A stretch of DNA of 50,985 nt, from the NCBI GenBank assembly GCA_034439615.1, contig JAWXAT010000002.1, positions 1-50,985 on the forward strand. The letters run 5' to 3'. The notes under the pieces were generated by a model. The model was not told where the DNA came from. It did no database searches and was given only the letters and a program-made list of their open reading frames with translations. How positions within the stretch are numbered: the first letter of the stretch is position 1; each line of letters starts with the position of its first letter. Source of the DNA: Oligoflexia bacterium (lineage in GTDB: Bacteria > Bdellovibrionota > Bdellovibrionia > JABDDW01). A program made the translations under genes and the position numbers. Below are positions 3,985-23,122 of the stretch, in pieces.

Positions 3985-4137
3985 AGATCGAATTTAACCC
4001 CGAACCTACCTCAAGTTAAATTACTTCATAACTAGTTAAAATCATTGTATTAATAATTATGCTGCTTTGCGTAATATAGGAGTACAATTATATTAATGAA
4101 ACCCATTCTGGATTGAATGGACGTATGGGGGAATTCA

Positions 4138-7041
4138 ATGTTGTACGTAAGAAGTTTACGTATAATCTCGCTTGTAGCGATCGCAGCACTCAGTACCAGC
4201 TGCTTAAAAGGCTCAGAAAAAGAGACTTCTTCACTCCCTTTACCTTCAAATACTTGCAACACACAATACGATGTCACACTAAAATCTCGTAACCATTTTG
4301 AATGGCCATTTCATAATCAAGATCATGAGAAAAACGGTAAATTTTGGCTCTGGTATATTAAAAACCGTCTTCATGGCTTTCTTAGCCCTTCAGTGTATTT
4401 TGATAATTTAGATAAAGAAGCACTATCTAATGTTCAACTTGAACATGAAACTCTTGTTGGTAAAGCCATCGTATTTAATATCGAAGACATTAATTATAAA
4501 ACAATAAATCTATCAATGAACGGCTTAAAAGGTCTTGCGCTAAGTCATGATGCTATTGAAGTAAAAACTATCAATATATATCCGTTTAAAAAACACTTTG
4601 AAGTAGATTCCGGTGATGTCAGTGACGAACATAAAAAAGATAAGAAAGACAAAAAAGATAAAAATGAAAAGCACATTATTAAGCACGTTAAACTTGTCGA
4701 AATCACATTTCATTTAGAAAAATTTATCTTTGGTGTAAATAAATCTGCCGCTGAACTTATTCGAAGTACCGCAATGAATAACGGTACATTAAGTTTTAAA
4801 TTTAAACATCATGGTGGATTCTTTAAAGTATTTGATTCAAAGTTGCATCTTGAAGGGAAATTCCCTGGTTACTGCCCAAGTCCGACACCTGAAGCAAGTC
4901 CAACACCAACGCCAACACCGTCGGGAACTCCTGAACCTTCACCGTCGCCAAAACCTGCGCCAGTTGTGAGCATTGATAGAATTTCTGTAGGCACTTTGAC
5001 CAATTCAAATAACATCATTATTGAGTTTAGCGCTGATCAACCATCAAATTTTCGCTGTAGCATAGATTCAAGCGGTTTCACTGGTTGCACATCACCTTAT
5101 AATGCTTCAGCTTTAAGCGATGGCCAACATCACTTTACTGTACAAGCCATCAATGCCAACGGAACAAGTAGCCCAGCTCAATTTGATTGGACAGTTGATA
5201 CGACTGCACCTGTTTTAAATTTTACAAGCATTACACCTGCGCAAGCTGATACTTCTGAAACTCAAATTGGTTTTGAATTCGCATCTTCTGAGCCTACAGC
5301 TTTTGAATGTAATCTCGATAACACTTCATGGGATCCGTGTAATTCACCTAAGTCATATAATAGCTTAGGTGATGGTGCGCATTTATTCTCTGTACGCGGT
5401 AATGATATTGCAGGAAACATCAGCGCCGCGTTGTCATATAGCTGGAACGTAAAGACTTTACCTCCAACAGTGACCATTACCCAAGTGACGCCCAACACTA
5501 ATCCAACTAATTTAACGTCAAGAACATTTGATTTCACAGGCACTGCCGATACGAAGCGATTCACCTGTTCACTTGATGGAGAAGCTGAAACGCTTTGCAC
5601 ATCACCTTATCAAGTCAACAGCTTGAGCGATGACGCCCATCAAATTAAAATATATGGTTATGATATTGCATCCAACAAAAGTGCTCCAGCAATGAGCTCA
5701 TTCACGGTTGATACAATGGCTCCAGCTATGAATATTACTTCAACTGTGCCGAGCCAACAAATTACGAATCAAAATGTGATGGAAATTAATTTTGCATCAA
5801 ATGAAAGTTCGATCTTTTCATGTTCACTCGATGGAGCCATCAGTAGTGTTTGTGTAAGCCCCATTAGTTTTACAAATCTTTCAGAGGGGGCCCATGAATT
5901 TAGAGTAATGGCCACTGACACTGCGGGAAATCAAGGTTTGTCTGCTGCAATTTATCGATGGACAACCGACTACACAAATCCGTTAATTACAATTACATCT
6001 GTAAATCCATCAGCTGCAGTATTTAATCAAACAGAAATCTCATTGAATTTTAGCTTAAGTGAATCAGGTTCTGCACTTTGTAGCCTCGATGGTAACTTTG
6101 CTCAAGATTGTACAAGTGGTTCAACCAACTATTTAGGTTTGAGTGACGGCAATCATGCAATTCAGATTACAGCACTTGATTCTGCGGGCAATGCATCTGC
6201 ACCTATGAATTATGCTTTTATAGTCGATACAACTGTACCAGTTGTACAGATCACCATGGTGAACCCATCTGAGTTATTAACCAATCAATCAGCAGTTACA
6301 ATTAGCTTTTCATCACTCGACACATCAGCTCAATTTCAATGTCAGCTTGATAACGGAAGTTATGCCAATTGCTCATCACCACACTCCTATTTAGCGCTGA
6401 GCGATGGCAATCATAACTTTAATGTGCGTGCTGTTGACACAGCTGGAAATATAAGTGCAAACCCCGCAAACTACTCATGGACAATTGATACAGTTGCTCC
6501 AGTTACACAAATCACAGCAGTCACACCCACCGAAGATTCAACAACTTCTGATACGATTACATTTACACTTTCATCAAACGAAGCTGGAACTTTTGAATGC
6601 CAACTTGATGGCTCAGGATTCAGCCCTTGCATAAGCCCTGTGACCTATAACGGATTAGCCGCAACTTCACATACTTTTCAAGCGCGTGCTCGTGATCAAG
6701 CTGGAAATCTCGATGCAACAGGTGTTACTCGCACTTGGGATATCACAAGTAATCAACAACCACCGCCCGTAATCAGTAATCGTCGCGCTACTAATGTGAC
6801 ACAAACATCAGCAATTATTCGCTGGGATACTGATATCCAAAGCACCACACAAGTTTCATTCTCCACATCTGCTTCGGGACCATTTACTTTTACAAACCTC
6901 GACAATACTCTAGTAACTGCACACAGCATGACCATCACGGGACTTACGGCTAATACTTTTTACTATGTGTATGTGCATTCAAAGAATTCTTCTGGCCAAG
7001 AGTCTACTGGTAGCGTTTTAAATTTCAGAACACTTCGCTAA
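4138..7041 (+). CDS. Large surface lipoprotein with seven Ig-like repeats and an FN3 domain
   Basis: I place the start at the ATG at 4138 (967 residues) because GGGGGA stands 6 nt before it; an in-frame ATG at 4117 has no such site. Residues 1-22 form a lipoprotein signal (LSTSC, Cys22). An unrecognised N-terminal domain (about 40-245) contains a Lys/Asp-rich tract. A Pro/Thr/Ser linker (about 250-280) leads into seven tandem repeats of about 80-85 residues, each with a pattern like TFECxLDGxxFxxCxSP, LSDGxHxFxVRAxDxAGN and a closing W/F-x-VD. Two cysteines per repeat probably form a disulfide. The end is a fibronectin type III domain. It is likely a cell-surface stalk or adhesin; the ligand is unknown. 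Confidence 0.85.
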   Translation: MLYVRSLRIISLVAIAALSTSCLKGSEKETSSLPLPSNTCNTQYDVTLKSRNHFEWPFHNQDHEKNGKFWLWYIKNRLHGFLSPSVYFDNLDKEALSNVQLEHETLVGKAIVFNIEDINYKTINLSMNGLKGLALSHDAIEVKTINIYPFKKHFEVDSGDVSDEHKKDKKDKKDKNEKHIIKHVKLVEITFHLEKFIFGVNKSAAELIRSTAMNNGTLSFKFKHHGGFFKVFDSKLHLEGKFPGYCPSPTPEASPTPTPTPSGTPEPSPSPKPAPVVSIDRISVGTLTNSNNIIIEFSADQPSNFRCSIDSSGFTGCTSPYNASALSDGQHHFTVQAINANGTSSPAQFDWTVDTTAPVLNFTSITPAQADTSETQIGFEFASSEPTAFECNLDNTSWDPCNSPKSYNSLGDGAHLFSVRGNDIAGNISAALSYSWNVKTLPPTVTITQVTPNTNPTNLTSRTFDFTGTADTKRFTCSLDGEAETLCTSPYQVNSLSDDAHQIKIYGYDIASNKSAPAMSSFTVDTMAPAMNITSTVPSQQITNQNVMEINFASNESSIFSCSLDGAISSVCVSPISFTNLSEGAHEFRVMATDTAGNQGLSAAIYRWTTDYTNPLITITSVNPSAAVFNQTEISLNFSLSESGSALCSLDGNFAQDCTSGSTNYLGLSDGNHAIQITALDSAGNASAPMNYAFIVDTTVPVVQITMVNPSELLTNQSAVTISFSSLDTSAQFQCQLDNGSYANCSSPHSYLALSDGNHNFNVRAVDTAGNISANPANYSWTIDTVAPVTQITAVTPTEDSTTSDTITFTLSSNEAGTFECQLDGSGFSPCISPVTYNGLAATSHTFQARARDQAGNLDATGVTRTWDITSNQQPPPVISNRRATNVTQTSAIIRWDTDIQSTTQVSFSTSASGPFTFTNLDNTLVTAHSMTITGLTANTFYYVYVHSKNSSGQESTGSVLNFRTLR

Positions 7042-7104: not shown

Positions 7105-9420
7105 GTGGATAAATATCTTGTATCATTAGCTTTTATACTTCTTTGCTTTGAGTGCGGATGGCTCTTCCAAGATCTTAAGATTGTGGATCTACCATTATTT
7201 CTCAATGGCAAATCTGAAATTGAAGCCGGTGATCCTATGGGAAAAATAGTCCGTACAAAAAAAGAAGTACGCAGACGCCCTAGTAGTAGCCTTGTCTGGG
7301 AAGAAACAAATATTTCACAAAATCTTTTTGCCTACGATACCATTTTGACACTTGAGCAATCTACTGCAGAAGTAAGTTTACTCGGTGATACACAAATTAC
7401 TTTGCATGAGAACACGTTAGTGGCAATTGAGCCACTTCAAGAAAATGCCACCGATCAAGGCCCCATTCGATTACGATTTCGCCAAGGGTCTATGCGCGCT
7501 GCCTTTGGGCGCGAGCCACAAAGTGTAAAAGCCGGTGATTGGATTGTTGAGGCAACTAGCAATACAAAAATTTCTATTCGCTCTGACGGAGAAAATCAAT
7601 TTGAACTTGAAACTTATGAGGGCGAAGCAAAAATTATCAACGCAAAAACTCTTGCAACTTCTGAAACAATTAAAGCTGGGCAAAGCATTAAAATGGAGCC
7701 TGAAAAACTTTCTGAAGTCAGAAAAGTTTTAGAACTAGAATGGTTTAGTCCCAAAGATGGTCAACGGTATTATACACATCAAGATAGTATTGCAGTGCCC
7801 TTCGAATGGAAAGGTGTTGCAACCGGGATTAAAATTTTTAACCATGAAAGTATTCGAGCACGTGATGTGAAATTTGCTCATAGTACTATTGGTGAAGAAA
7901 AACTTTCGCTAACCAAAGGTAACTACGTCTTACGACTACACAATGAAGCAACCAGTACATTCGCACGAATTATTTCTGTTTGGCCGGCGCCAAAAATCCA
8001 TTTAATTTCACCCCTAACTCGTGAGCGAATCAAATTTAAAACTGATGTAGATTTTCTCTGGACTCAACATCGAGATGCGAAAAATTACTTATGGGAGATA
8101 TCAACTGACTCTGAATTTAAAAACATCATACGAAATAAACAGACTATTGATAATTCAATAAGTGCCAAGGATCTACCCTTGGGGCAATACTACTGGCGAA
8201 TACGCGCCCATGATGATCAAGGTTTTGAGATACCCGAAATATATAACAACACTTTTTATATTTTAGAAAAACCACTAGCTGCACCAAAATTAAAAACGCC
8301 ACAAATAAAAATGGAAACGGGATTTAATTTCTGGAACTGGCTTATACCACAAGCTCAAGCTTCAGAAAAATCGACTCACACTTTACGATTACCAAAAAAA
8401 TACTCAGCAGAATTTCAATGGGAATCTGTGGAAGGTGCAGACCGCTATGTCATTGAAATTAGCGAAACACCTGATTTTCAAAACACAGTAGGCAATCAAG
8501 TTATTAATAACCCTAGCTATAAATGGCGCAACTTTCCGTTGGGAAAATATTATTGGCGCGTCGCAGGGCAAGCAAACAATGAAGTGGGTCTTTTTAGCGA
8601 AGTCGCCTATGCGGATTTGACTACTATTCCACAAGGCCCCATAACTCCGATGTCAAAAGAAACAGTAGATGCAAAATTAAAAATTCAAAAACAGATTGCC
8701 ACACAAATTTCACAGCCCGTGGTTGCACCACGACCTACGCCAATGCCGACGCCACCATTAATTGCAAAACCAACACCGACTCCACCTTTAAAACAAAAAC
8801 CATTACAGTGGGGCTATGAAGTACAAGTCGGTGCTGGAGGAAAATACAACCACTTCCGAGGAAATGATTTTATCGCCCGTGAAATCGGCCCCGTATACGG
8901 TCAAGCCCGCATGGCAGTAACTCCAGATTATACTTTTAGTACTTGGCGCCTTGAAGCTGAGCTAGAACGACATACTTTAAGAATGAAAGATCTTACATCA
9001 GCCCCACTTCAAGCGCCGATCACGAGATACATGGGGCGAGTTACTTTTATTGATGAAAATCCGTATAAAGATTATGCAAGCTATGGTCTCGCCATTCACA
9101 CCCAAACATTGATTTATCGACGATCAGACTTAGAGATCCTAAACATCTATGCACCCGTTTTTGTTGGCCCCATCATTGATTGGCGTCATTATGATAATGA
9201 CACAGAAATAAATTATCGTTTGGGAGTTTTTATTGGCGATCCATTTACCGGCAAAGTGATTTCATTTGAAGGACGCGCTAATCAAACATGGCTTTTTGAA
9301 ATGTGGCCAGGATTTATTTATACAATGACACTCGAAGGAAAACTTTCAACAGGTGCTACGACAGAGAAATCTTTTTGGGGCGATGCGACTGGAAACCTCT
9401 TCTTAGGCGTCCGGTGGTAA
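7105..9420 (+). CDS. FecR-domain protein with FN3-like repeats and C-terminal barrel-like domain
   Basis: The 771-residue product starts at a GTG with only a weak ribosome binding site. It has an N-terminal hydrophobic segment, a FecR-like domain (about 60-180, with the LRFRQGSMRAAFG strand and the VEATSNTKISIR block), three FN3-like modules ending in YYWRIRAHD- or YYWRVAGQA-type strands (about 210-510), and a Pro/Thr-rich linker (about 545-570). The last 200 residues alternate in polarity and end VRW, as outer-membrane beta-barrels often do. FecR domains are periplasmic and, in the classic system, relay signals to anti-sigma partners; no sigma/FecR operon is present here. It is a fused counterpart of the two genes at 19017 and 20789, and it overlaps the convergent glycine-rich gene by 65 bp. 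Confidence 0.8.
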   Translation: MDKYLVSLAFILLCFECGWLFQDLKIVDLPLFLNGKSEIEAGDPMGKIVRTKKEVRRRPSSSLVWEETNISQNLFAYDTILTLEQSTAEVSLLGDTQITLHENTLVAIEPLQENATDQGPIRLRFRQGSMRAAFGREPQSVKAGDWIVEATSNTKISIRSDGENQFELETYEGEAKIINAKTLATSETIKAGQSIKMEPEKLSEVRKVLELEWFSPKDGQRYYTHQDSIAVPFEWKGVATGIKIFNHESIRARDVKFAHSTIGEEKLSLTKGNYVLRLHNEATSTFARIISVWPAPKIHLISPLTRERIKFKTDVDFLWTQHRDAKNYLWEISTDSEFKNIIRNKQTIDNSISAKDLPLGQYYWRIRAHDDQGFEIPEIYNNTFYILEKPLAAPKLKTPQIKMETGFNFWNWLIPQAQASEKSTHTLRLPKKYSAEFQWESVEGADRYVIEISETPDFQNTVGNQVINNPSYKWRNFPLGKYYWRVAGQANNEVGLFSEVAYADLTTIPQGPITPMSKETVDAKLKIQKQIATQISQPVVAPRPTPMPTPPLIAKPTPTPPLKQKPLQWGYEVQVGAGGKYNHFRGNDFIAREIGPVYGQARMAVTPDYTFSTWRLEAELERHTLRMKDLTSAPLQAPITRYMGRVTFIDENPYKDYASYGLAIHTQTLIYRRSDLEILNIYAPVFVGPIIDWRHYDNDTEINYRLGVFIGDPFTGKVISFEGRANQTWLFEMWPGFIYTMTLEGKLSTGATTEKSFWGDATGNLFLGVRW

Positions 9421-10957
9421 TAAGCCCACCCAAATTACACATCAAAAGCAGAAGAAAAAACTCACCAGGACCACTAAGTTTTCCGCATGCTGGAGTAAAA
9501 TCAAAATTTGTTGTTTGATGCCCCTCGTACTTTGCAGCAACTACATTAATTTTTAATGGCGTAGGTATAGGAGCTGTTTGCGGTACTGTAGGTAGATAAT
9601 TAAATGTCAGTCGGTAGCGGTACCACCGCTTCCCCTTTAATATTGATATTGCTGTAGCACTTATCCAACCCGTATTATCTGAATTAAAACCATCGTTACT
9701 CCCCGCAACTTTAAAATTTATAGTACTTGTTCCTGGGATAACATCTTCTTTAACAAATGCAGTATATGTCGGACTCGAATTCGCTGTATCAATAGGCAAC
9801 GATTGGGCCACATGGCTAAAACCTGAGCGATAGATTACTTCACCCGCATCTGGGCCGTCAAAATTTGGTGTGTTTGAAAAAGTTCCTGTAACTCCAAATG
9901 CGATCCATGTATTTCCGGGGGCGCCATCGCCATTACCACCACCACTTCCACCAACTCCACCTTGCGCATCAATTGTTCCGCCACCGGTAATTGAATTTGG
10001 AGTAAAGAGTGAAACAATTCCCCCAGCTCCTCCGCCACCGCCACCATTTCCGGCAGTGACTCCACCATTTCCACCAGTGGCAAGAATTGATCCTGTAAGT
10101 GTGACATTTCCACCAACAAATAAACGAATGATGCCGCCACCGGCTCCACCACCACCACCCGCAATAAAACCGCCGGTGTTGTAACCCCCACCACCGCCGC
10201 CACCGCCGCCACTTCCGGCACCGTATGTAAATGTATCGAGATAAGAATCTAAAGCAGATACTCCGGCAACACCACCAGCAGGAGTTCCTGCACCATTACT
10301 TCCGCCTGAACTACTGTTTCCACCACCACCACCACCACCTCGCGGATCTGCCGCATGATCAACACCGGCTCCACCGCCCGCACCACCCGCTGTACTTGAA
10401 GTTCCAACTGCTGAAGTTGCGCCAATACTTCCGTTACCACCCGAACCACCGCCACAACGACCAGTGCCACCTCTTGGTACTACAGAAATTGATCCGCCAC
10501 CCGCCGTACCAATATCACCACGACAATCAATGATGCCCGCAATAACTACATCACCCATGATTCGCATTATGAGTGGAAGTGAGCCCTTGCCTTTAAGTGT
10601 CCAGCCAGTTGGTAAATCAAAAGTTGTGAATTGTAATGAAGTGTAAATATCAGTATTGATCGTTATAATATTTCCTGAAGTTGATCCATTTTCGCTGAAC
10701 TTTGAAAATGTTGTTATGTTAAACGGCCCATGTCTCCCATCACCAATGTTTACAAGATCATTGGCATTGTCAGCACCACTACCAGATGAACGATCGACAT
10801 AAATCTGAGGGTGAATAAAATGTAGGACGTAATTCCAAACAGCTGTGGTGGTATTTGCATCGTGATAACGAGTATCATTAAATCGTTCAGCTATTTGTGC
10901 TGCACTAACTGACTGCGGAAGGAGTAAAGCGAATAACAAAACCGAAAAGTATATCAT
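9356..10957 (-). CDS. Secreted glycine-rich protein with CTERM-like tail
   Basis: The 533-residue product has a signal peptide (1-19, ending SVSAA) and an N-terminal region of about 150 residues. A very glycine-rich centre (about 150-350) is full of GGGGGG runs, and a beta-rich domain (about 370-480) follows. The tail has three parts: CGKLSGPGE, a hydrophobic stretch FFLLLLMCNLGGLI, and a basic end with GRLRRG and RPKK. This Cys/Gly motif, membrane segment and Arg/Lys cluster resemble CTERM-type sorting signals such as MYXO-CTERM, but I cannot assign a known class. It is the last gene of a four-gene operon, overlapping the receiver-TPR gene by 4 bp, which suggests it is an output of, or is controlled with, that signalling system. 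Confidence 0.75.
   Translation of the reverse strand: MIYFSVLLFALLLPQSVSAAQIAERFNDTRYHDANTTTAVWNYVLHFIHPQIYVDRSSGSGADNANDLVNIGDGRHGPFNITTFSKFSENGSTSGNIITINTDIYTSLQFTTFDLPTGWTLKGKGSLPLIMRIMGDVVIAGIIDCRGDIGTAGGGSISVVPRGGTGRCGGGSGGNGSIGATSAVGTSSTAGGAGGGAGVDHAADPRGGGGGGGNSSSGGSNGAGTPAGGVAGVSALDSYLDTFTYGAGSGGGGGGGGGYNTGGFIAGGGGGAGGGIIRLFVGGNVTLTGSILATGGNGGVTAGNGGGGGGAGGIVSLFTPNSITGGGTIDAQGGVGGSGGGNGDGAPGNTWIAFGVTGTFSNTPNFDGPDAGEVIYRSGFSHVAQSLPIDTANSSPTYTAFVKEDVIPGTSTINFKVAGSNDGFNSDNTGWISATAISILKGKRWYRYRLTFNYLPTVPQTAPIPTPLKINVVAAKYEGHQTTNFDFTPACGKLSGPGEFFLLLLMCNLGGLITTGRLRRGFQSHRPKKISLS
9925..10490. repeat. GGN/NCC triplet-rich tract
   Basis: The plus strand is packed with CCACC, CCGCC and similar triplets, and the minus strand with GGTGG and GGAGG, because it encodes the poly-glycine core of the protein above. 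It is far more GC-rich than its surroundings. The minus-strand runs of GG every third base could form G-quadruplexes and are prone to slippage. Proline- and histidine-rich open frames on the opposite strand are shadows of this tract. Confidence 0.75.
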
Positions 10958-11790
10958 CCCGTCTTTTGTAAATTATTGATCTCATTTAAAAGGCTATGAG
11001 CACCAACATGATAGGGTTGTAGTTTGACAGCTGTTTTAAGAAATTTTATAGCCTGATCAAATTCTTGTTTAAAAAAATACGCTTGCCCGACGTAAAAGTG
11101 TAAATCCGCATTATCAGGAAAGTATACGATGGCATCGCTACTCAGCTTAACCGCTTTATCAAACCACTTCACCTTCGTATATGATTTAGCTAAATTTATA
11201 ATAAGTTGAATGTTCATTTGCTTGAGATCATATTTTTCAGGAGGGAGTTCACTATTAATTCTCACAGTGCCCGTTTTGGGATTTATCTTAGCAGAGGTCT
11301 TGGCTACTTTAGCTAAAATATAATTATTTGATGGCACTTCACGATTAAGTGCGGCTTCGAACTCAGCAGCACTTTCGTCAATTTCACCATTCATAAGAAT
11401 ATTAATTTTATCTTTGAGAATATTTGCGCGAAATGGCTTTACAAGATACGCATCAACACGCGACTTTGCCGCTTTTGAAATTTTCATGCGCTCATGAGAA
11501 CTTTGCGAACTTACCATTAAGAACTTTATGCTAGCGCGCGCTGGGTCTTTACGCACGGCGCGCAGTAAAGTTAGACCATCGATGTGTGGCATCTCCCAAT
11601 CTGAAATGATAAAATCAATACGCTGGCTGTGATTTTGAATAATTTTAATTGCTGCCTTACCATCTTTAGCTTGAATTACTTTATTGAATCCAAAACTATT
11701 AAGGTACTGAGCTAAAATATCTCTTACTTGACCATCATCATCGACGATCAAAAAAGTTGCCTCTTTCGGATCAATCACATTGCTACTCAT
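10954..11790 (-). CDS. Response regulator with C-terminal TPR repeats
   Basis: The 278-residue cytoplasmic protein has a CheY-like receiver domain (about 10-135): acidic pocket DDD at 17-19, phospho-acceptor Asp64 in IISDWEMP, Ser94 in place of the switch Thr, and Lys118 in LVKPF. The C-terminal third (about 185-275) has two TPR-like helix pairs (SYTKVKWFDKAVKLSSDA, QAYFFKQEFDQAIKFLKTA). There is no DNA-binding domain, so output is probably through protein binding. It overlaps both neighbours by 4 bp, so it is made with the two kinases and the glycine-rich protein. Confidence 0.9.
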   Translation of the reverse strand: MSSNVIDPKEATFLIVDDDGQVRDILAQYLNSFGFNKVIQAKDGKAAIKIIQNHSQRIDFIISDWEMPHIDGLTLLRAVRKDPARASIKFLMVSSQSSHERMKISKAAKSRVDAYLVKPFRANILKDKINILMNGEIDESAAEFEAALNREVPSNNYILAKVAKTSAKINPKTGTVRINSELPPEKYDLKQMNIQLIINLAKSYTKVKWFDKAVKLSSDAIVYFPDNADLHFYVGQAYFFKQEFDQAIKFLKTAVKLQPYHVGAHSLLNEINNLQKTG

Positions 11791-13061
11791 AAACCCTCTC
11801 CTTCACCATCAATTGGTATAAGGATGCGAAACTCAGCACCACCTTGAGGGTGATTAGATACACTCAGATTTCCACCGTGTGTGATTTCAATAACTTCTTT
11901 GCAAATTGATAAACCAAGACCCGTCCCCTTGGCCCCTTTGGTCGTAAAAAACGCATCAAATATTGTAGCGAAATTTTCTTCAGGTATCCCAGGGCCAGAA
12001 TCATGAATTTTAATTTCAATTTGATCATCGACAACTTGGCCAGTAATTTCTATTTTTCCCTTATCTCCAATAGCGTGTGTTGCATTGATGATAAGATTCA
12101 TAAATACCTGGACCATTGCCGTATGATTTATGTAAACCAGAGGAAGCCCCTCAAGACTAACAACAACATTAATGCGCGAACGCATGAGTTCATGTTTCAT
12201 CAGAAGTATGGTTTCATCAATGGGAGTTGCGATATTAATTTTATTAAAACTTCCACCCGTATCAGACGGCTTCACAAGATTTTTAAAACGCTCTAAAACT
12301 TTACTCGCGTGTTCAGTTGCAATTAATATTGTTTCGAGTGCTTTTTTCATTTCCGGTTCAGCGCCATCTTTTGATAAATCAGCACGCCCCATGATTTGCA
12401 GTAAAATATTTCCAAATTCATGACCAACGTTTCTTGCAACCGCTGCAACCATCAATGTTTTTTCATTATCAAATATGCGCTTCTTGAGTTCGTCTAGATG
12501 TTCACGCAGAGCAATATCTCGTTGCCTGATATTCCACATCGAAACCATATTGCGTGCTTTTTGTAGTATTTCGCCCTCGGAAAAAGGTTTATTAAGATAG
12601 TCCCAACGGTCTGAGAATTCTTTGCCAAATATTTTTTGAATTGAATTTATATTTCTATCTTGATACGCGGTTACAAGCACTGCGTACATATGAGGATCCA
12701 AAGCATGAATCTGCTTTACTGTTTCAATACCATCTATGCCATCACCCAAGAGCACGTCAAAAAATCCCATGGCATATGGTTTATTCTCGGCTAAGGCTTT
12801 TTTAACCTCTTGCACTGCTTGTTCACCATTGTGAACGGTTGTTACTTCAAAATTATCAATAAAATTATCATCCGTAGTAAGTTCTTCTTTTTTTGAACGG
12901 CTGCTTTTAATTGAAATTACTTTTGCCACCGGGCTTAAGATATCGCGATAGGCTTGTGCAATCTCAATTTCATCTTCCACCACAAGAATTCGACGACTTA
13001 CAATCAGTTCAGGTTGTACTGGAATTTTTTCAACTTTTACGGCATTTTGATTGCTTTTCAT
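11787..13061 (-). CDS. Receiver-histidine kinase hybrid (soluble)
   Basis: The 424-residue protein has no membrane segment. An N-terminal receiver domain (about 23-175) carries DE at 30-31, Asp102 in FFDVLLGD, Thr131 and Lys158 in LNKPF; about 25 extra residues are inserted after its first helix. A coiled linker leads to a HisKA-like helix with His214 in NVGHEFGN and a HATPase domain (NLIINATHAI, HDSGPGIP, GTGLGLSICKEV). Receiver-first hybrids usually take a phosphate from another kinase and pass it on, so it may act between the membrane kinase upstream and the receiver-TPR protein downstream. It overlaps both by 4 bp. Confidence 0.9.
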   Translation of the reverse strand: MKSNQNAVKVEKIPVQPELIVSRRILVVEDEIEIAQAYRDILSPVAKVISIKSSRSKKEELTTDDNFIDNFEVTTVHNGEQAVQEVKKALAENKPYAMGFFDVLLGDGIDGIETVKQIHALDPHMYAVLVTAYQDRNINSIQKIFGKEFSDRWDYLNKPFSEGEILQKARNMVSMWNIRQRDIALREHLDELKKRIFDNEKTLMVAAVARNVGHEFGNILLQIMGRADLSKDGAEPEMKKALETILIATEHASKVLERFKNLVKPSDTGGSFNKINIATPIDETILLMKHELMRSRINVVVSLEGLPLVYINHTAMVQVFMNLIINATHAIGDKGKIEITGQVVDDQIEIKIHDSGPGIPEENFATIFDAFFTTKGAKGTGLGLSICKEVIEITHGGNLSVSNHPQGGAEFRILIPIDGEGEGL

Positions 13062-15163
13062 GCAGCTACCTCACGTTGCGTATTTTGACTTAATGGCAAT
13101 TCAATTCGAAATTTAGTTTCAGCATTTGAATCACTATGTACTAAATAAAGATCTCCATGAAATGCGCGAACAAATCTTCGACTAATACTTAATCCAAGCC
13201 CCGTGCCCAACTCAGGAGATTTTGTTGAAAACTGACTCTCAAAAAGTTTGATTTGATTTTCTTTTGAAATTCCAATTCCATTATCGCTAATATCAATGCA
13301 GAGTTTGTTTCCGTCATTAAAAGTTTCAATTCTTACAAAACCTTTTTTTGTCGGATCTTTTAATTCAGCTACTGCGTACAGTGCATTTCTCATTAAATTA
13401 GTGAGAACCTGTATAAGTTCATCGCGATCGATATTTGAAGAATCAATACTCGCATTATATTTTTCGATTACTTGAATTTTATTTTTAGCAAAGAGATCAG
13501 CCACAATATTCACGGCGTCATGGAGTATAGGGTGAATTTTCATTTTTGCCCGAGAACTTGATACAGCACTGAGAGATCTCATTTGTTTTAGAATTTTTTC
13601 TATACGGCCAGCTTGTTGCATTAAAAAATTTGTATCTTTCTCAAGGGTGCCCATATCATCATCCCAGTGTTTAAATATCTGAGTGATATTGTGAAGATCT
13701 TCTTGCATGAGTGTCATTTTAGGATCAATCGATGAGGGCTCCTGAAGAGATCTTAAAAATCCCTCAAATCCTTTTTCTTGAATTTCTTCTTGCCATGCTT
13801 TTACAATCTGCCCCAAAAGATCTTTGTGTGTTAGAACTTCATCGTTAAGACGTTTTTGAACTTTTTGTATACGCGTCATAAGACTTGTAAGTGGATTTAA
13901 AACTTCATGAGCTGTACGACCCGCAATCTCACCCACTGAGGCAAGACGTGTTGTTCTCAAAAGTGCCTCTTGAGCTTCTTTTACTGCGTGGTTTTGTTCT
14001 TCTAATTTTTTAGTGCGATCAATAACTTTATTTTCTAGCTCTCTATTTATTTCTTCTAACTGCACACGTGAACTTTTTAAATCAAGTGTCATGCGATTAA
14101 ATGAATTCGATAATACGGCAATTTCATCATGTGATTTTATTTGAAGTGCTGCATCGAGATTTCCCGCTGACACTTTCTCCATGGCCTCCATGAGTTTTTG
14201 AAGAGGCTGCGTTAATGTGCGTGAAAAGAAAATCGTTGCGATAAAAGTTACAGTCGTGATGATCAGTGCAAATAAAAGTGATCTTGTAATAAGTTGTTTT
14301 ACTGCCATAAAAGCTCGAGCACTTTCAACTTGTGAGATAATGCCAAGACCACCTACACTTACACGCGAGTAAGCACCTAATTGCTCTTTACCCTGATCAG
14401 AATACTCCATGACACCTGTAGAAAAACTGCCACGTCTAAATTCATTTACAATTGGTGATTTAGAAAAATCGCGGGCCTCTGACATATAAGTTGGTTTTGC
14501 ATGAATGAGCACACGTCCATCAGCCCCAATAATAAAAGCTTGAGTCAGTGTTGATGTTTTTAGGTTTTTCAAAAATTGATCAGCTTTTACATAACCTACA
14601 ACAGCCATTAGTTTTTCAGGTGTTCCGCTTGAGCCTTCACGAATTACAGAAATACCCATACCGATCAGTGCCGGGCCTTGTGGAATAGTTGCATTCCATA
14701 CCGCTAATGATTTTGATTGAATCAGATCAAAAGGAATTTCACGTATTGCAGGTAATATTTCATCATAGTATTTCTCATCAACCTTGTATAATTCAGCAAA
14801 ACTTTTATCTGTAATCTGAGAAATTCTTTTCATATTTTTTGAAAAGCCAAGTTCATACAATTCAAGTCGAACCAAGAGTGGATCTTTTTCTACAATTTCT
14901 TGAAAAGCTGTTTGGGTTCGGCGTTCTAAATTTCCAGCAAAAATTAAGGCATAGAGTTTTAATTTATCTGCTGCACCTAAAAGAGATGTTTCAACTTCTG
15001 CAGCAAGTGTTGTAACCACACTCTTATTTAGATCAAATACGAGAGCCTTTTTATCACTCTCAAAAATGCGTGTTGCTAATAATAAATAGAGACCAAGTGC
15101 TCCCACCAAGAGAACAGTCACAACTGATAAGATCTTGTAACGAATGGAGAATCTTAATTTCAC
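13058..15163 (-). CDS. Cache-HAMP membrane sensor histidine kinase
   Basis: I choose the GTG at 15163 (701 residues): AGGGAG lies about 8 nt upstream and translation then opens with the basic KLRFSIRYK stretch before the first membrane helix. A longer frame starting at 15223 lacks these signs. Order: membrane helix (about 10-30), periplasmic dCache-like sensor (35-285), second helix (about 293-314), HAMP (315-365), coiled coil, His419 in GRTAHEVLNP, then an unusually long dimerisation region (about 420-535), and a HATPase domain (N box NLMRNALYAV, DISDNGIG, GTGLGLSISRRF). It is the first gene of the operon. The sensor domain is a paralogue of that in the cyclase at 17078; the ligand is unknown. 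Confidence 0.9.
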   Translation of the reverse strand: MKLRFSIRYKILSVVTVLLVGALGLYLLLATRIFESDKKALVFDLNKSVVTTLAAEVETSLLGAADKLKLYALIFAGNLERRTQTAFQEIVEKDPLLVRLELYELGFSKNMKRISQITDKSFAELYKVDEKYYDEILPAIREIPFDLIQSKSLAVWNATIPQGPALIGMGISVIREGSSGTPEKLMAVVGYVKADQFLKNLKTSTLTQAFIIGADGRVLIHAKPTYMSEARDFSKSPIVNEFRRGSFSTGVMEYSDQGKEQLGAYSRVSVGGLGIISQVESARAFMAVKQLITRSLLFALIITTVTFIATIFFSRTLTQPLQKLMEAMEKVSAGNLDAALQIKSHDEIAVLSNSFNRMTLDLKSSRVQLEEINRELENKVIDRTKKLEEQNHAVKEAQEALLRTTRLASVGEIAGRTAHEVLNPLTSLMTRIQKVQKRLNDEVLTHKDLLGQIVKAWQEEIQEKGFEGFLRSLQEPSSIDPKMTLMQEDLHNITQIFKHWDDDMGTLEKDTNFLMQQAGRIEKILKQMRSLSAVSSSRAKMKIHPILHDAVNIVADLFAKNKIQVIEKYNASIDSSNIDRDELIQVLTNLMRNALYAVAELKDPTKKGFVRIETFNDGNKLCIDISDNGIGISKENQIKLFESQFSTKSPELGTGLGLSISRRFVRAFHGDLYLVHSDSNAETKFRIELPLSQNTQREVAA

Positions 15164-15371
15164 GAAACACTCCCTTATAAAGCTTTTCGGCACATGCGCA
15201 AAAAAACAAAAGGGAATTTTCATAAGTAATTACGAACATTTATGTGCTTATTTTTGACTTAAAATGTCGATTTTTTTACCGCAATGCGTTAAAAAGTATT
15301 AATATTAAGGTGCACCGACGATAAATTTGTTATTAAAAGACTCGTCATCACAATATTTAGAAAGGTTATTC

Positions 15372-17077: not shown

Positions 17078-18904
17078 TTACGCCGCTTCTTTTTTATCGT
17101 GCACGACTTTATCGGATTGTTCTGATTGGTACGTTGAATAAGCTGTTTCCACAATTATTTCTTTGCCACTTTCATCGATGTATCCTCTGACTTTAAATGC
17201 CTTGAGGGCATCAGCTTTACCTTTCACTTTTGATGTGATTGGCTCAACGATGAGTTTATTTTTTACTTGTTGATAAACTGCATCTGATATTAAAAGGTCT
17301 GTTCCATATTCTTTGGTCAAAGATTCAACCCGTGAAGCCGTGTTGACAGTATCGCCGATTACCGTGTATTCCATTTTTTCTGTCGAACCAATATTACCGG
17401 CAATTAATTCACCATAATGTAGACCCATACCGATTTTGATTGGTTTTTTTCCTTTTGCCATGCGCGCATCATTAAACACTACAAGTTGAACTCGCATCGC
17501 AATGCAGGCACTAACAGCGTTCCACGTATCATTGGGTTTAGGTACTGGAGCACCCCACACAGCCATGATGGCATCGCCCACATATTTATCAACCACACCT
17601 TTATGCTGTGTAATCACAGAAACCATTGAAGTCATATATTCATTGAGCATTTCTACTACTTGTTCAGCTTCAAGACCTTCACTAATAGAAGTAAATCCTC
17701 GAATATCACTAAAAAATACTGTGGCTTTTTGACGGGTACCACCAAGTTTTATTTCACCAGATAAAATAGCTTCGGCAATTTCTTTTGAGTGAAATTTATT
17801 AAATGTCTCTTTAAGTTTATCACGCTCTGCCAAACCTGTTGCCATCTTACCGAATGAATGAGTAAGGGCCGTGATCTCGTCATGGCCTTTTGGTTTTACC
17901 TTAATATTAAAATCCCCTGCTGCAATTTGCCGGGTGAGTTCAACGAGCAACTTAATTGGTTTTGTCAAAGTTGTTGAGAAGAAGTACACGGCAGCAAATG
18001 CTAAACAGAGTATGACCCCGGCAACAAGTAATGATCGGTATTTTACACGATTTGCAGTTTCAAATGCCTTCTCTTCTAAAACTTGTGAAATAACCCCAAC
18101 ACCTGCAACACCCACTTGTCTGAATGCACCTAAATAGTATTTACTATCTTGATCAAGAAATCGCAATTGGTTATTATTAACAGGGCTTTCAAGCATTGCT
18201 TTTACAATCTCAACATCTTTTAAATTTGCACCTGAACTCACTAAGGTTTCTTTTGGATGCGCCAATACATTACCTTCGCGATCAACAAGGTAAGATGTTA
18301 CAACACCTTTTTTCCCATAAATTTGTAAAAACTTTGTTTGATCAACAATTCCTACAGCTGCTGTAACGACATTTTTTTTATCATCAACAGCTAATGGAAA
18401 GCTAAGTGTAAGATAACTTTGCCCAGCGACAGTCACTCTTTGAATATCAATATCGCCTGACCAAGATTTATTAGATGGTTTTATACTATTAATGATCTTT
18501 TCATTTTTTGATTTATCGCTAGCGAAACTTTGTCTTTCTGCAGAAAGACCACCTTTTCTCCAGGTCATAACCGCAATCAATTCACTATTACGCTTAAATT
18601 GTAAATGTTGAGCAGTAGACTTTCGTGCTGCGTCTAGGTTTTGCGTTTGAATCTCAGTAATCGTTGTAACAACATTTACTAGTGTCCCTAGATATTCGTA
18701 TGTCTGATTGGCAAGCTGCCCCGCGACATCACTAGTCGCCTTTTGAATAAATGCTGTATTATCGTCACTAAAGAGTTTTGTAGCTAAAAATACCACAAGA
18801 AGTGTGGATGTTACCAACATAAGAGCCATCATTGATACCAGCTTAAAACCAATTGGTAGTTTTACTTTAAATTCTTTAACTTCGGCCTGGGGTTCTTTAC
18901 TCAT
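17078..18904 (-). CDS. Cache-HAMP membrane class III adenylate/guanylate cyclase
   Basis: The 608-residue protein has a membrane helix (about 21-43), a periplasmic Cache-like sensor (45-285), a second helix (about 289-310), HAMP (311-363) and a class III nucleotide cyclase domain (about 390-560). Both metal aspartates are present (Asp400 in FFSDIRGFTS, Asp444 in KYVGDAIMAVWG), as is the transition-state pair Asn521/Arg525 in NTASR. Lys510 and Asp518 in EKMEYTVIGD fit an adenylyl cyclase, though substrate cannot be proved by eye. The domain looks complete. It is divergent from the FecR gene at 19017 (112 bp between), and its sensor resembles that of the kinase at 13058. Confidence 0.92.
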   Translation of the reverse strand: MSKEPQAEVKEFKVKLPIGFKLVSMMALMLVTSTLLVVFLATKLFSDDNTAFIQKATSDVAGQLANQTYEYLGTLVNVVTTITEIQTQNLDAARKSTAQHLQFKRNSELIAVMTWRKGGLSAERQSFASDKSKNEKIINSIKPSNKSWSGDIDIQRVTVAGQSYLTLSFPLAVDDKKNVVTAAVGIVDQTKFLQIYGKKGVVTSYLVDREGNVLAHPKETLVSSGANLKDVEIVKAMLESPVNNNQLRFLDQDSKYYLGAFRQVGVAGVGVISQVLEEKAFETANRVKYRSLLVAGVILCLAFAAVYFFSTTLTKPIKLLVELTRQIAAGDFNIKVKPKGHDEITALTHSFGKMATGLAERDKLKETFNKFHSKEIAEAILSGEIKLGGTRQKATVFFSDIRGFTSISEGLEAEQVVEMLNEYMTSMVSVITQHKGVVDKYVGDAIMAVWGAPVPKPNDTWNAVSACIAMRVQLVVFNDARMAKGKKPIKIGMGLHYGELIAGNIGSTEKMEYTVIGDTVNTASRVESLTKEYGTDLLISDAVYQQVKNKLIVEPITSKVKGKADALKAFKVRGYIDESGKEIIVETAYSTYQSEQSDKVVHDKKEAA

Positions 18905-19016
18905 GTAAATGATTCTCCTTGTCCAGGTACCCTATCGGCAATTGGCAAGAGAGATTAAATATTAAAAATGGTCTGGATTATTTGAATTTCTAATTAATTT
19001 TGACGATGTAACAAGA

Positions 19017-20792
19017 GTGAAGAGAGTCCTTATATACAATTTCATAGTTATACTCGTCTCGCTAGGTGGTGCTAGTGCTTGCGGATACTATCTGTATGCT
19101 GATATTTATCTAAATCGCTCAACATCTGAAGGCCTTGAAATTGCTGGTGTGCTAACAGAAATACAACAATCTGTTAAACGCAAATTTGGCGACAATATGC
19201 TTTGGGACCTCGTTAATGCCAATGAAAAACTTTATTGGAATGATTCAATTCAAACTTCTGAAAAATCACAAGCGCACATTAGACTTGATGACGGGAGTAA
19301 AATATCACTCGGCGAATCAAGTCTTGTTGTACTTGAAAGAAATAACAACAAATTATCATTAAGTCTCAAAAGTGGACAATTGGTCGTTGATTCTCAAGCG
19401 TCTGCAGATTCACAAATTAAAATTAACGGTATGGATCTCGCAGCTGCAGGCAAAGGCACAATGTCATTGCAAGTAGATGCTGAAAAAGGACAATTAACTG
19501 CCACCACTATGGGGGTAGATGGTACAGGAAAACAAATCACCATTGATAAAGATGGTACGATGTCTGAAAAAGAAATTCCTACGATCCTAGAATCGCCAGC
19601 ACCTTTATCTCGAGAATATATAGACGCCGCACAAACTGCTATAACTTTTACTTGGCAGGCGAAAAATAATAGTCCCAGAATTCTAGAATTAGCAAAAGAT
19701 AAAAATTTTAAACAAATGGTCATTCAAAAGAAACTTACAACAAAAAAGTATTTAACAAACTTAAAAGCCGGTAGTTTTTATTGGCGCGTTAAGACCGAGG
19801 GTGAAAAAGAGATTAATGTGAGCGAAACACGTTCATTCGAAATTATTCAAATGAACACCCCAGTACTCACAACTCCAGATAAAAATCAATCTATGGCATT
19901 TAGAAACGATATGCCTGTTGTTGAATTTAGCTGGAAGGGTGATACAAATTCTACGAAGTATCTCTTTGAAACATCAGACAAAGAAGATTTTTCTAATATT
20001 CGATTCAAAGAAGAGACTAACAACTTATATGTTAGAACATCAAAAATTTCTGAAGGAAAGAATTTCTGGCGCGTTTCTGCTATTTACAATGAACATGTAA
20101 AAGTAAGTAACCCAAGCTTTGTACAGGTCAACAAATTAAAAGAAGCTCTACCACCAGAATTAATGTCGCCGGATAATAATTTTAAATTAACTTTTGATAT
20201 TTTTCAAAAAGCTAATGGCATTCAATTTCGTTGGAAATCACAAGTTACCGAGACTGTTGAAAAATTTAAATTTGTACTTTCACGAAACGAAAAATTAAAA
20301 GATGAACTTGTTTCATTTGAAACAACACAAAATGAAACCCTCCTTAAAGAAAATTATCCAGAAGGTATCTATTATTGGTCCGTAGGTCTCAAAAACCTTG
20401 ATGGCGAATGGAAGCATCATGAAATTCGTAAACTTGAACTAGGCCCTCTTGTTCCTCTACTTTCACCACCAGTCATTTTAGGTTGGTCAGACACTACAGA
20501 GCTTGATCTCTTAAAAAATCCACTTATCAAATGGCGCTGGAAAAAAGTCGAAGGCGCCGCCTCTTATAAATTTAAACTCCTAAAAATGGGCTCTAAAGAA
20601 GAAGTGGTTCTTGAAGATACACTTAATGGCGTTGAAAAAGAAAAAACAGATCTCCCAGACGGCAAATACAAATGGGTTGTATCTTCTATAGACCGCTATG
20701 GCCGCGAATCTGAACCAACAGCTCATCAATTCACTGTTTATCACGGAAAAACTCTTGAAGCTCCAGATTTTGATATGTCGGAGGTTCAATGA
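19017..20792 (+). CDS. FecR-domain protein with FN3-like modules
   Basis: The 591-residue product begins at a GTG and has one N-terminal membrane segment (about 4-27), then a FecR-like domain (about 70-175: AHIRLDDGSKISLGESSLVV, LSLKSGQLVVDSQAS). About four FN3-like modules follow (190-585), each closing with a strand such as FYWRVKTEGE, NFWRVSAIYN, YYWSVGLKN or YKWVVSSID. Its stop codon overlaps the start of the barrel gene (ATGA), so both are made together. The pair has the same domain order as the single protein at 7105. Divergence from the cyclase gene suggests a shared control region. Confidence 0.82.
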   Translation: MKRVLIYNFIVILVSLGGASACGYYLYADIYLNRSTSEGLEIAGVLTEIQQSVKRKFGDNMLWDLVNANEKLYWNDSIQTSEKSQAHIRLDDGSKISLGESSLVVLERNNNKLSLSLKSGQLVVDSQASADSQIKINGMDLAAAGKGTMSLQVDAEKGQLTATTMGVDGTGKQITIDKDGTMSEKEIPTILESPAPLSREYIDAAQTAITFTWQAKNNSPRILELAKDKNFKQMVIQKKLTTKKYLTNLKAGSFYWRVKTEGEKEINVSETRSFEIIQMNTPVLTTPDKNQSMAFRNDMPVVEFSWKGDTNSTKYLFETSDKEDFSNIRFKEETNNLYVRTSKISEGKNFWRVSAIYNEHVKVSNPSFVQVNKLKEALPPELMSPDNNFKLTFDIFQKANGIQFRWKSQVTETVEKFKFVLSRNEKLKDELVSFETTQNETLLKENYPEGIYYWSVGLKNLDGEWKHHEIRKLELGPLVPLLSPPVILGWSDTTELDLLKNPLIKWRWKKVEGAASYKFKLLKMGSKEEVVLEDTLNGVEKEKTDLPDGKYKWVVSSIDRYGRESEPTAHQFTVYHGKTLEAPDFDMSEVQ

Positions 20793-23122
20793 TAAAACTC
20801 TTTTTAGTGTTATTATCGGGTCTAGTAACTTTGCCCACATACGCAAAAGAAGTTAATTTAAAGTGGAGGGCTATCGAAGGAGCAAAGCTCTACAATCTCG
20901 AAGTAGCAACAGATGACAGTTTTAATAAAAAAGTAATTGAAAAAAGTGTGAAGCTTAATAATTTACCATCTAACTTAAAGCCCGGTGTTTATTATCTACG
21001 GGTTCAAGCTGTAGATGCCCTTGAGCGCCCTGGTATTTGGAGTAAACCTTTTCGCCTTGCTATTACCGCACCTGTTCAGCCTCTAGTCGAAATTGCAGAG
21101 CCTCAAAAAATAACATTTTCAAAGAAAAGCCCAAATGTTGAGACAAGCTGGAGGCCAGCAGAAAATGCGACTAACTATAAGGTTGTTATTTTAAAAGATG
21201 GTAAAGAATATAAGTCTTTTGAAACTAAAGATCCTAAATCTGATTTTAAACCCACTGAGCCCGGTAATTATAAAATTACAGTACGCACGGGAATGGAAGG
21301 TTCATTTGGCGCTCCAACTACTATACAAGAACTTAACATAGAAAAAAAAGAAATCACAGCTCCTCAGTTACAAATGGGGCAATCTGAAAAATGGAGTAGC
21401 AGAAAAAGTATCCCATTTAAATGGGCTCCGGTAGAAGCGGCACAATATTACCGACTTAAAATTTATAAAGTTGAAAATGGGCAAACCGATGTGCGTTCAC
21501 TTGCGAGCACCTCGCAACCCATTATTGATGCACCTCACATCGATTCACCCGAGTACTCAACAGGAAAACTTCCGCCTGGCAAATACATCGCTGTGATTGA
21601 AGCGCGCGAAAGTGATGAAACCGTTGCTCCAACAACTGAATATCAATTTGATGTAAAAAATATGAAACCCATTGATTTTGACCGCTTTGATTTTACGGCC
21701 AGATACACCGTGACTCCGATTGATTATTCAAGCACCATGCGTGAGATTTCTTCAGCCAACAATAAGTCATCGACTATTGGTGGGAATATGCTCCTCGAAG
21801 GACACTTGTGGTTTCCCGATTCGCGCTGGGGTGTCAAAGCTGGTGGAGTCTGGGGTGGATTTTCAATCAATAATACAAACATAACTTATAATGATTTAAA
21901 TTTAGCAGCTTCTTATAAATTTTCAGGAAGCAACAAAGGTCTTATGACAACAATAAGACCGTATGTAGGTGGTCGTTTATGGACTATCCCTATTATTTCT
22001 CGCGCACTCATCACAGCACCAATGCAAGTCTACACTCCAACTTTATACGGCCCGGTGGGTGGAGTCGATATTACAAAGCCACTTAACGACACGTGGGCAC
22101 TTACTGGACGGATGCAAGTTTCTGTACCACTTGGCAATTCTGCTATAGGCGGTGGCGGCTCTGCTGGATTTATCAAAGTAGATCCCGAAGTAAGTTCTAA
22201 AACAGAATTTGGTGCGAAATATGGATTTAAAGGAAACATGCGACTCCTTGCCATGGCTGGATTTCAACAAGATGTCATCCGATGGACTCCAAATGCGGGT
22301 TCACGAACTCAGAAATCCGAAGTTAATATGAGCTCACCTACATTTTCTATAGGCATTGAAGCCACAGATGACGGCGGAATGTTTAGAAGTTCAGAAAATA
22401 CTGTGCGAGAAGATAAATTTTCTAACTTTGATCTCACATTTCGCTACAGCCTAACACCCGCCTCTTATTCAAGTAAACTTCAAGAAAATAACAGTCAATC
22501 AACAAGCTTTAGCGGTGAAACAAGCGGCCTAGCCGATATCGATGCGACTGGATGGTTTCACGGATCAAATCATGCCCTACGTGCAATTGCAGGTTGGGGT
22601 GGTTTCACTTATAAAAATTCAACGGTGAGTTATCCTGAGTTCATGTTGCAATGGGGATATCGCCCGCAAATTAAAACTCCAAAAGGATCAATTTACATTA
22701 AGAATTTTTTTGGTCTTCGTTCGTGGCAAGTCCCCGTCTTGGCATATGATCAAGCAACGACTCAGTTTTACTCTAGAGCCCCACAATTATTGGGCCCGGC
22801 AAATACATTCCAAGTATTTCAAAAATTTAGCCAAGTATGGACAATGCGCTTGGGCGCAGAACTTTCAGCTCCAATTGTTGCAGCTAATAAACAAGCAGAC
22901 ATTGATCGAATTTTACCAGGGGCCATGAGTCACAAGCTTGATGTAGCTTTTATTCGAGAGTTTTCTGAAGATTTCTCAGTTGGTGGTGGGTTTGGTTATA
23001 AAGAAGACCAGATTCAATACATTCCAACAACGAGTCAGTCCGGAACACCAAGTGCTGAAAGATCTTCTCGCGCAGTGCTTACCACACCCGCTTATTCTGT
23101 ATTTGGGGTCTATACTTTTTAA
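20789..23122 (+). CDS. FN3-like protein with two duplicated barrel-like domains
   Basis: The 777-residue product has a signal peptide (1-19, ending TYAKE) and three FN3-like modules (about 20-290). Two homologous domains of about 230 residues follow: the first (about 295-525) opens FDFTARYTVTPIDYSS and the second (about 547-777) FDLTFRYSLTPASYSS. Both contain a GGxxxFxxxN-like strand pair and a GxRxWxxPxL block. Alternating polar and non-polar residues and a C-terminal phenylalanine (VFGVYTF) suggest outer-membrane beta-structure. It is coupled to the FecR gene by a 4-bp overlap and overlaps the convergent aconitase gene by 4 bp. Confidence 0.8.
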   Translation: MIKLFLVLLSGLVTLPTYAKEVNLKWRAIEGAKLYNLEVATDDSFNKKVIEKSVKLNNLPSNLKPGVYYLRVQAVDALERPGIWSKPFRLAITAPVQPLVEIAEPQKITFSKKSPNVETSWRPAENATNYKVVILKDGKEYKSFETKDPKSDFKPTEPGNYKITVRTGMEGSFGAPTTIQELNIEKKEITAPQLQMGQSEKWSSRKSIPFKWAPVEAAQYYRLKIYKVENGQTDVRSLASTSQPIIDAPHIDSPEYSTGKLPPGKYIAVIEARESDETVAPTTEYQFDVKNMKPIDFDRFDFTARYTVTPIDYSSTMREISSANNKSSTIGGNMLLEGHLWFPDSRWGVKAGGVWGGFSINNTNITYNDLNLAASYKFSGSNKGLMTTIRPYVGGRLWTIPIISRALITAPMQVYTPTLYGPVGGVDITKPLNDTWALTGRMQVSVPLGNSAIGGGGSAGFIKVDPEVSSKTEFGAKYGFKGNMRLLAMAGFQQDVIRWTPNAGSRTQKSEVNMSSPTFSIGIEATDDGGMFRSSENTVREDKFSNFDLTFRYSLTPASYSSKLQENNSQSTSFSGETSGLADIDATGWFHGSNHALRAIAGWGGFTYKNSTVSYPEFMLQWGYRPQIKTPKGSIYIKNFFGLRSWQVPVLAYDQATTQFYSRAPQLLGPANTFQVFQKFSQVWTMRLGAELSAPIVAANKQADIDRILPGAMSHKLDVAFIREFSEDFSVGGGFGYKEDQIQYIPTTSQSGTPSAERSSRAVLTTPAYSVFGVYTF

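Follow-up and report, generated by a model that had tools for sequence, protein, structure and literature searches.

In the FecA–FecR–FecI system, a FecR-like domain in the periplasm links a barrel of the outer membrane with the inner membrane. We analysed a 50,985-nucleotide stretch of DNA from an Oligoflexia bacterium of the Bdellovibrionota (the window, always meant at its full length), in which a phosphorelay operon adjoins the gene of a protein predicted to make a comparable connection: as in FecR/PupR signalling, a FecR-like periplasmic domain and an outer-membrane barrel would be coupled to the inner membrane. The locus differs from FecR/PupR signalling in that FecR domain and barrel form one predicted chain, the barrel is OpcA/OmpT-like and not a TonB-dependent receptor, and the partner of the FecR domain is probably a histidine kinase sensor. 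It also lacks a cytoplasmic anti-sigma part, and the window neighbours run through Pfam include neither an ECF sigma factor nor a TonB-dependent receptor.

Three other described systems are close to parts of the locus. The BiofilmReg operon of Burkholderia, which controls biofilm formation, likewise unites a FecR-domain protein and a sensor kinase in one signalling locus (PMC5192318). The passages of that report describing the operon give it a CHASE2 sensor, a LysM domain on the FecR protein and a DNA-binding CreB-like regulator, none of which was found here, and describe no Gly-rich or barrel part (PMC5192318), whereas this locus has a Gly-rich protein and a predicted barrel. The MYXO-CTERM tag of surface proteins is described as a tripartite tail with an invariant Cys, a membrane helix and a basic end, which requires both its Cys and the CPBP protease MrtX (PMC11980579); the Gly-rich protein of our locus ends in a tail of the same tripartite build, in a different phylum. 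Finally, the signalling proteins resemble CheY and receiver–histidine kinase phosphorelays in their conserved His and Asp residues and in the CheY-like nature of the last receiver, but differ in the fusion of that receiver to TPR repeats, in the co-inherited envelope proteins and in having no Hpt domain that Pfam could find in the operon. The individual parts are thus of known kinds, whereas their assembly, and the tail, are new as far as our literature search shows: searches for such a locus, for FecR in Bdellovibrio and for a CTERM tag in Bdellovibrio returned nothing on this system.

Organization of the locus

The features of the locus are as follows.

13058-15163, minus strand: membrane histidine kinase with a weak Cache-like periplasmic sensor, HAMP and HATPase_c; phospho-acceptor His419
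11787-13061, minus strand: soluble receiver-histidine kinase (REC-HisKA-HATPase_c); Asp102, His214
10954-11790, minus strand: CheY-like receiver with TPR repeats; Asp64, Lys118, Tyr115
9356-10957, minus strand: Gly-rich secreted protein with a jelly-roll-like domain, a Gly-rich beta-helix-like insert and a C-terminal tag
9359-9487, minus strand: the C-terminal tag of the Gly-rich protein, with Cys491-Gly492, a short linker, hydrophobic helix 497-522 and a basic tail
7105-9420, plus strand: FecR-barrel gene, encoding an N-terminal helix, a FecR/PupR-like part, fn3-like domains, a Pro-rich linker and an OpcA/OmpT-like barrel (the domains as predicted)
9356-9420: convergent 3'-end overlap of 65 bp between the Gly-rich and FecR-barrel genes
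4117-7041, plus strand: lipoprotein-like protein of 974 aa with OmpL47/Big_13-type repeats and a C-terminal fn3 domain
17078-18904, minus strand: cyclase whose sensor is a homologue of the kinase's, a separate parallel module outside the operon
19017-20792, plus strand: second FecR protein, paired with the cyclase and followed by a gene at 20789-23122 (plus strand)

The original prediction had read the four minus-strand genes as a single translational unit, and the open reading frames of the window bear out the 4-bp overlaps on which it relied (13058/13061, 11787/11790 and 10954/10957), supporting that reading. The operon that it described therefore stands, although the FecR-barrel gene, the lipoprotein and the membrane-anchor tail had been overlooked. 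The kinase frame opens at 15223 (ORF 13058-15223, minus strand), but the start at 15163 given in the prediction agrees better with the homologues, and His419 is numbered from it.

Among loci of other class genomes, the 4-bp overlap between kinase and receiver-kinase is kept in all 12 that show the junction (L065-L077; L069 is cut). The junction of receiver and Gly-rich genes is less strict, with a 4-bp overlap in the window and L066 only. The 3' ends of the Gly-rich and FecR-barrel genes overlap in 10 of the 13 loci that show both (window and L065-L077); within the family, the three genomes have overlaps of 65, 62 and 59 bp. At this point L076 leaves a gap of 62 bp, and L070 and L071 have other ORFs there.

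The phosphorelay proteins

Pfam assigns HAMP and HATPase_c to the membrane kinase, a receiver, HisKA and HATPase_c to the receiver-kinase, and a receiver and TPR repeats to the third protein. In line with the original claim, Pfam finds no DNA-binding domain in the two receiver proteins, and these assignments support a relay whose output is not DNA binding. The residues of a phosphorelay are in place, with a phospho-acceptor His in each kinase and a phospho-acceptor Asp in each receiver: His419 of the kinase, within AHEVLNPL, is invariant in 12/12 class homologues, and Asp102 and His214 of the receiver-kinase, like Asp64, Tyr115 and Lys118 of the last receiver, are invariant in 14/14 sequences. 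That last receiver is CheY-like, being closest to CheY both in the PDB and by sequence (E. coli CheY) and carrying the switch residues.

The receiver of the receiver-kinase (11787-13061) has a long insertion after its first helix, and an IKSSRSK motif (residues 51-57) is conserved in the family. In the other families of the class whose loci were read (L067-L077), the CheY-like receiver stands alone without the TPR fusion. Outside the class it is doubled, either as two receivers plus TPR in one protein or as two separate receiver genes (L120 16659-17918; L128 15644-17256).

A predicted trans-envelope protein and its lipoprotein neighbours

The product of 7105-9420 is predicted from its structural model to be a trans-envelope protein. 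The model (mean pLDDT 77.7, pTM 0.51, so that the relative placement of domains is unreliable) has a helix at residues 3-23, a low-confidence linker at 511-565 and strands at 569-770. The modelled barrel matches OpcA (Z 19.7, rmsd 2.6, 189 residues), and OmpT-like proteins also match by fold; the middle part matches fn3 pairs. The FecR part matches the anti-sigma factor BDI_1681 (Z 14.4, rmsd 2.3, 124 residues) and PupR (Z 16.4, rmsd 5.4, 165 residues). With the Pfam FecR model the window protein scores 21.3 bits, below the gathering score of 24, and its L072 homologue scores 24.2 bits. Pfam score and model matches together point to a FecR-like periplasmic domain. No cytoplasmic anti-sigma region was found in the protein; the predicted N-terminal helix begins at residue 3 and so leaves no space for a cytoplasmic domain.

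Next to this gene, the product of 4117-7041 contains repeats of the OmpL47 barrel-domain type (NCBIfam, E 5.6e-26); the family takes its name from a surface protein of Leptospira. In the sister genome G002 (L066/L034), the same position beside the FecR-barrel gene is taken by a member of A9, a lipoprotein family with an fn3 end, and we infer that the lipoprotein-like protein of the window belongs to the system. In 21 genomes the kinase gene has an A9 gene less than 1 kb upstream; the family is not private to the locus, since 98 of the 143 class genomes have homologues, and a search of the window's genome at E 1e-20 returned none. A PA14-like character of the lipoprotein was rejected, as Pfam gave just fn3 and Pur_ac_phosph_N.

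The Gly-rich protein and its C-terminal tail

The Gly-rich protein has no Pfam match, and its N-terminus reads by inspection as a signal peptide. In its model (mean pLDDT 74.9, pTM 0.71) the Gly-rich stretch is flanked by short strands and a C-terminal helix spans residues 497-522. Foldseek returned no PDB match for the model at E 0.001 or better. VIA-align gave jelly-roll matches to phage tail parts and Eph ligand-binding domains (Z about 8-11 over about 107-145 residues), which may reflect merely a common arrangement. The matches, at modest Z scores, span residues ~18 to 480 with about 120 aligned, which suggests a jelly roll with a large insertion. Kinship with the gliding protein AgmC was rejected: 1 of 13 members matched, at 23 bits against a cut-off of 275, the match was confined to the Gly-rich stretch and is probably an effect of composition. 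A literature search for AgmC gave no result.

The tail has the build of MYXO-CTERM, namely a Cys, a membrane helix and a basic C-terminal end. Across the alignment, the Cys is invariant (20/20) and the neighbouring Gly nearly so; a linker and a hydrophobic stretch follow and, in most members, a basic end. Two tails in intact frames (L050 and L060) lack Arg and Lys beyond the scored part, and the frame of L059 is cut. When 491 ORFs in the loci read were scanned for the tail pattern, there were 17 matches, all of them Gly-rich proteins, so that the tail seemed private until a class-wide search with a profile of the Gly-rich tail revealed other carriers, among them matrixin-like, subtilase and C25 proteins (L165-L182, L184). 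The window's own genome encodes one, a 1128-aa fn3 protein (G000:C15, L177). All 19 non-Gly-rich matches at or below E 0.01 in frames of at least 150 aa were fetched. In 17 of them the Cys motif is present and the match ends 0-15 residues from the C-terminus; these 17 proteins are spread over 16 genomes, 9 of which have no Gly-rich gene. The remaining two are not tails but lie in what we take to be a TadC-like and a VWA-type membrane protein, the frame of the latter running beyond the fetched stretch. Three weaker matches were also fetched, of which L181 and L184 are tails and L183 is not. Carriers in L174-L176 are proteins of 2500 aa with the Cys tail, and that of L176 is a C25 peptidase related to the PorU-type sortases of type IX secretion.

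Searched against the NCBIfam library at E up to 10, the 13 Gly-rich proteins and 10 others with the tail matched none of its CTERM domain models. The CPBP family (PF02517), to which myxosortases belong, is absent from the window's genome and from G001, which rejects myxosortase-type handling by a CPBP protease in the window's genome. CPBP is thus no requirement, despite its statistical enrichment in genomes with the Gly-rich gene (23/37 versus 32/106 others). The Cys-Gly tail looks like a general sorting tag and is a candidate for a surface tag.

Joint inheritance within the class

In two other genomes of the same family, the order of all four genes and of the convergent 7105-9420 is kept, along with a NifU-like gene upstream. 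Identity to the window proteins is 42-46% for the Gly-rich protein, 55-57% for the receiver-TPR protein, 62% for the receiver-kinase and 61-64% for the kinase.

We extended the comparison to 143 genomes of the class by profile searches (E cut-offs: Gly-rich 1e-5, receiver-kinase 1e-60, kinase 1e-90, FecR-barrel 1e-30). Matches were obtained for the Gly-rich protein in 37 genomes, the receiver-kinase in 36, the kinase in 36 and the FecR-barrel protein in 40, or 38 once the matches of G019 and G029 (E ~1e-31 and ~1e-32) are removed as FecR paralogues. The co-occurrence table also omits second FecR matches in G000, G001 and G037, a second kinase match in G002 (6.1e-91) and a second Gly-rich piece in G098. 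The receiver-kinase is present in 35/37 Gly-rich genomes, and in the 32 that have both on one contig they always lie within 1 kb on the same strand; Fisher's test gives p ~8e-30 for this association with kinship ignored, and because the genomes are related the counts are not independent. The FecR-barrel gene is as faithful to the locus as the relay genes: it is found in 36/37 Gly-rich genomes and shares a contig with the Gly-rich gene in 28, on the opposite strand in all 22 cases within 1 kb and in the other six. Conservation of junctions and of co-occurrence in relatives takes the four-gene operon beyond chance.

Exceptions are few. The Gly-rich gene occurs without the receiver-kinase in G077 and G124, without the kinase in G083, G124, G127 and G129, and without the FecR-barrel gene in G079; the FecR-barrel gene occurs without the Gly-rich gene in G086 and G125. 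G079 and G086 (a FecR-barrel match only) are the few candidates among the 143 for loss of one part with the rest kept. A relative that keeps the three signalling genes and lacks the Gly-rich gene would have refuted the original prediction, and no such case is demonstrable in this set: G117, G125 and G138 have signalling genes and no Gly-rich match, and in each the contig stops before the expected Gly-rich start. Joint presence across the 143 genomes hence supports the functional link to the Gly-rich protein that had been proposed from the window. The locus was not found in the genomes of genus g10 listed in the class-wide Gly-rich search. Bdellovibrio itself falls in the same class as the window, and Bdellovibrio sp. 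qaytius is described as an epibiotic predator (PMC11656739).

Rearranged loci and the pairing of sensor and FecR

Among 368 genomes of the phylum, a broader profile recognises Gly-rich homologues in 91, of which 54 lie outside the class (91 less 37); from these 54 we read 12 loci, mostly the best scoring. A FecR gene lies beside the Gly-rich gene in 11 of the 12. Kinase and receiver-kinase adjoin in seven (L120, L123, L125, L126, L127, L128 and L130), in all of which the FecR and kinase genes point away from each other; in L122 the kinase, Gly-rich and FecR genes are present but a full receiver-kinase is missing. In L124, L129 and L131 the Gly-rich gene stays with the FecR gene while the signalling set is different, L124 having a sensor protein with a SpoIIE phosphatase domain and, nearby, a hybrid kinase and a small receiver. 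In L121 the Gly-rich homologue is alone and has no FecR or relay genes close to it.

A profile of the sensor part of the kinase, ending before HAMP, matches the window cyclase at 17078-18904 (E=6e-20), a cyclase on G000:C56 (L143; 7e-29) and a SpoIIE protein in L142 (1e-23), and each of these three genes is divergent from an adjoining FecR gene. The same divergent pair has a kinase as its output in L120 and like loci. Sensor matches are weak in L124 (3e-6) and L129 (1e-5), and the profile search gave none in L131. That the pair recurs with three outputs speaks most strongly for an action of FecR on sensors of this type; FecR is probably the sensor's partner and would act on it through the periplasmic FecR domain.

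Several of these modules have further parts. In the window (17078-23122), the cyclase and the divergent second FecR gene are accompanied by another envelope protein, and L143 holds a similar cyclase/FecR module whose cyclase bears a GYF domain. In genus g10 (Bdellovibrio-type) genomes, at L140 and L142, the homologous sensor is joined to a SpoIIE phosphatase (identified by Pfam in L142), and its gene is divergent from neighbouring genes for a FecR-barrel paralogue and a PAS/Hpt/HATPase protein.

A putative envelope-spanning phosphorelay

The reading that we favour, with a probability of about 0.5, is an envelope-spanning sensory phosphorelay that has the Gly-rich protein on its input side and a CheY-like output (here CheY-TPR). 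It builds on what was observed: the order and joint occurrence of the genes, their domains, the invariant His and Asp residues, the pairing of sensor and FecR across three kinds of output, and the conservation of the tail. The barrel, FecR-like fold and helix come from structural models, according to which the N-terminal helix would hold the FecR-barrel protein in the inner membrane and the C-terminal barrel would hold it in the outer one. We infer the direction of signalling, a surface location of the Gly-rich protein, the order of phosphotransfer and the target of the CheY-like protein. Jointly with the Gly-rich protein and, in many of the relatives, with a lipoprotein, the FecR-barrel protein would sense the condition of the cell surface, and its periplasmic FecR domain would act on the membrane kinase through the latter's sensor domain. 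Phosphate would then pass from His419 of the kinase via Asp102/His214 of the receiver-kinase to Asp64 of the CheY-like receiver, whose output would be contact with another protein, here through the TPR repeats. That the signalling genes travel with two envelope proteins suggests that surface conditions are reported to a CheY-like switch.

The original prediction ran the other way and suggested that the relay may control how the Gly-rich protein is exported, anchored or placed. The position of the Gly-rich gene at the end of a translationally coupled unit, its faithful co-occurrence and the receiver proteins without DNA-binding domains would all fit such an output. However, the proposal is weakened by the tail on unrelated proteases: in the 9 genomes where proteases bear it without a Gly-rich gene, handling of the tail needs no relay. 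The unit moreover contains no export or sorting gene. The Gly-rich gene keeps with the FecR-barrel gene where the kinase set is exchanged (L124, L129 and L131), so that the protein looks more like a part of the sensing apparatus of the envelope than like a controlled product. We regard control of the Gly-rich protein by the relay as improbable, and the direction of control as probably the reverse. Still more improbable is that the genes are neighbours kept by common descent without functional coupling. All the genomes are related and the counts ignore the tree, but presence is patchy within families f2, f3, f6 and f11 and yet joint, and outside the class the genes remain together though their order is rearranged.

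Two further alternatives concern the ends of the sensory phosphorelay. The tail might be a plain inner-membrane anchor, so that a periplasmic Gly-rich protein meets the FecR domain or the kinase with no sorting to the surface; the helix and basic tail suit an N-out/C-in topology, the window's genome has no CPBP sorting protease and no known CTERM model matched, whereas the invariance of the Cys and the recurrence of the tail on secreted proteases, as with known sorting tags, speak against this, and we consider it a real possibility that falls short of probable. That the CheY-like protein acts on the flagellar motor, as a surface-triggered motility switch beside ordinary chemotaxis, seems rather unlikely. 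The nearness of the receiver to E. coli CheY favours a motor target, and the presence of FliM in 36/37 Gly-rich genomes is compatible with one without being evidence for it; FliM is found in 123/143 class genomes anyway, too common to decide the output, G099 (83% complete) has the locus and no FliM match, and the TPR fusion here and the double receivers outside the class suggest other partners.

More tentatively, the envelope-spanning sensory phosphorelay may be one form of a modular receptor of the Bdellovibrionota, in which a FecR-barrel protein bridges the membranes and drives a sensor wired to a phosphorelay, a cyclase or SpoIIE, and in which a Cys tag handled by a non-CPBP enzyme displays the Gly-rich arm and surface proteases.

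Implications

If the sensory phosphorelay is real, the locus would be a concrete candidate for surface, possibly contact, sensing in relatives of predatory bacteria, in which transcription would not be the first output. FecR would then pair directly with the sensors of kinases, cyclases and phosphatases and not serve as an anti-sigma protein, and the tail would open a route to a putative surface-sorting enzyme of the phylum and to a list of the proteases displayed there.
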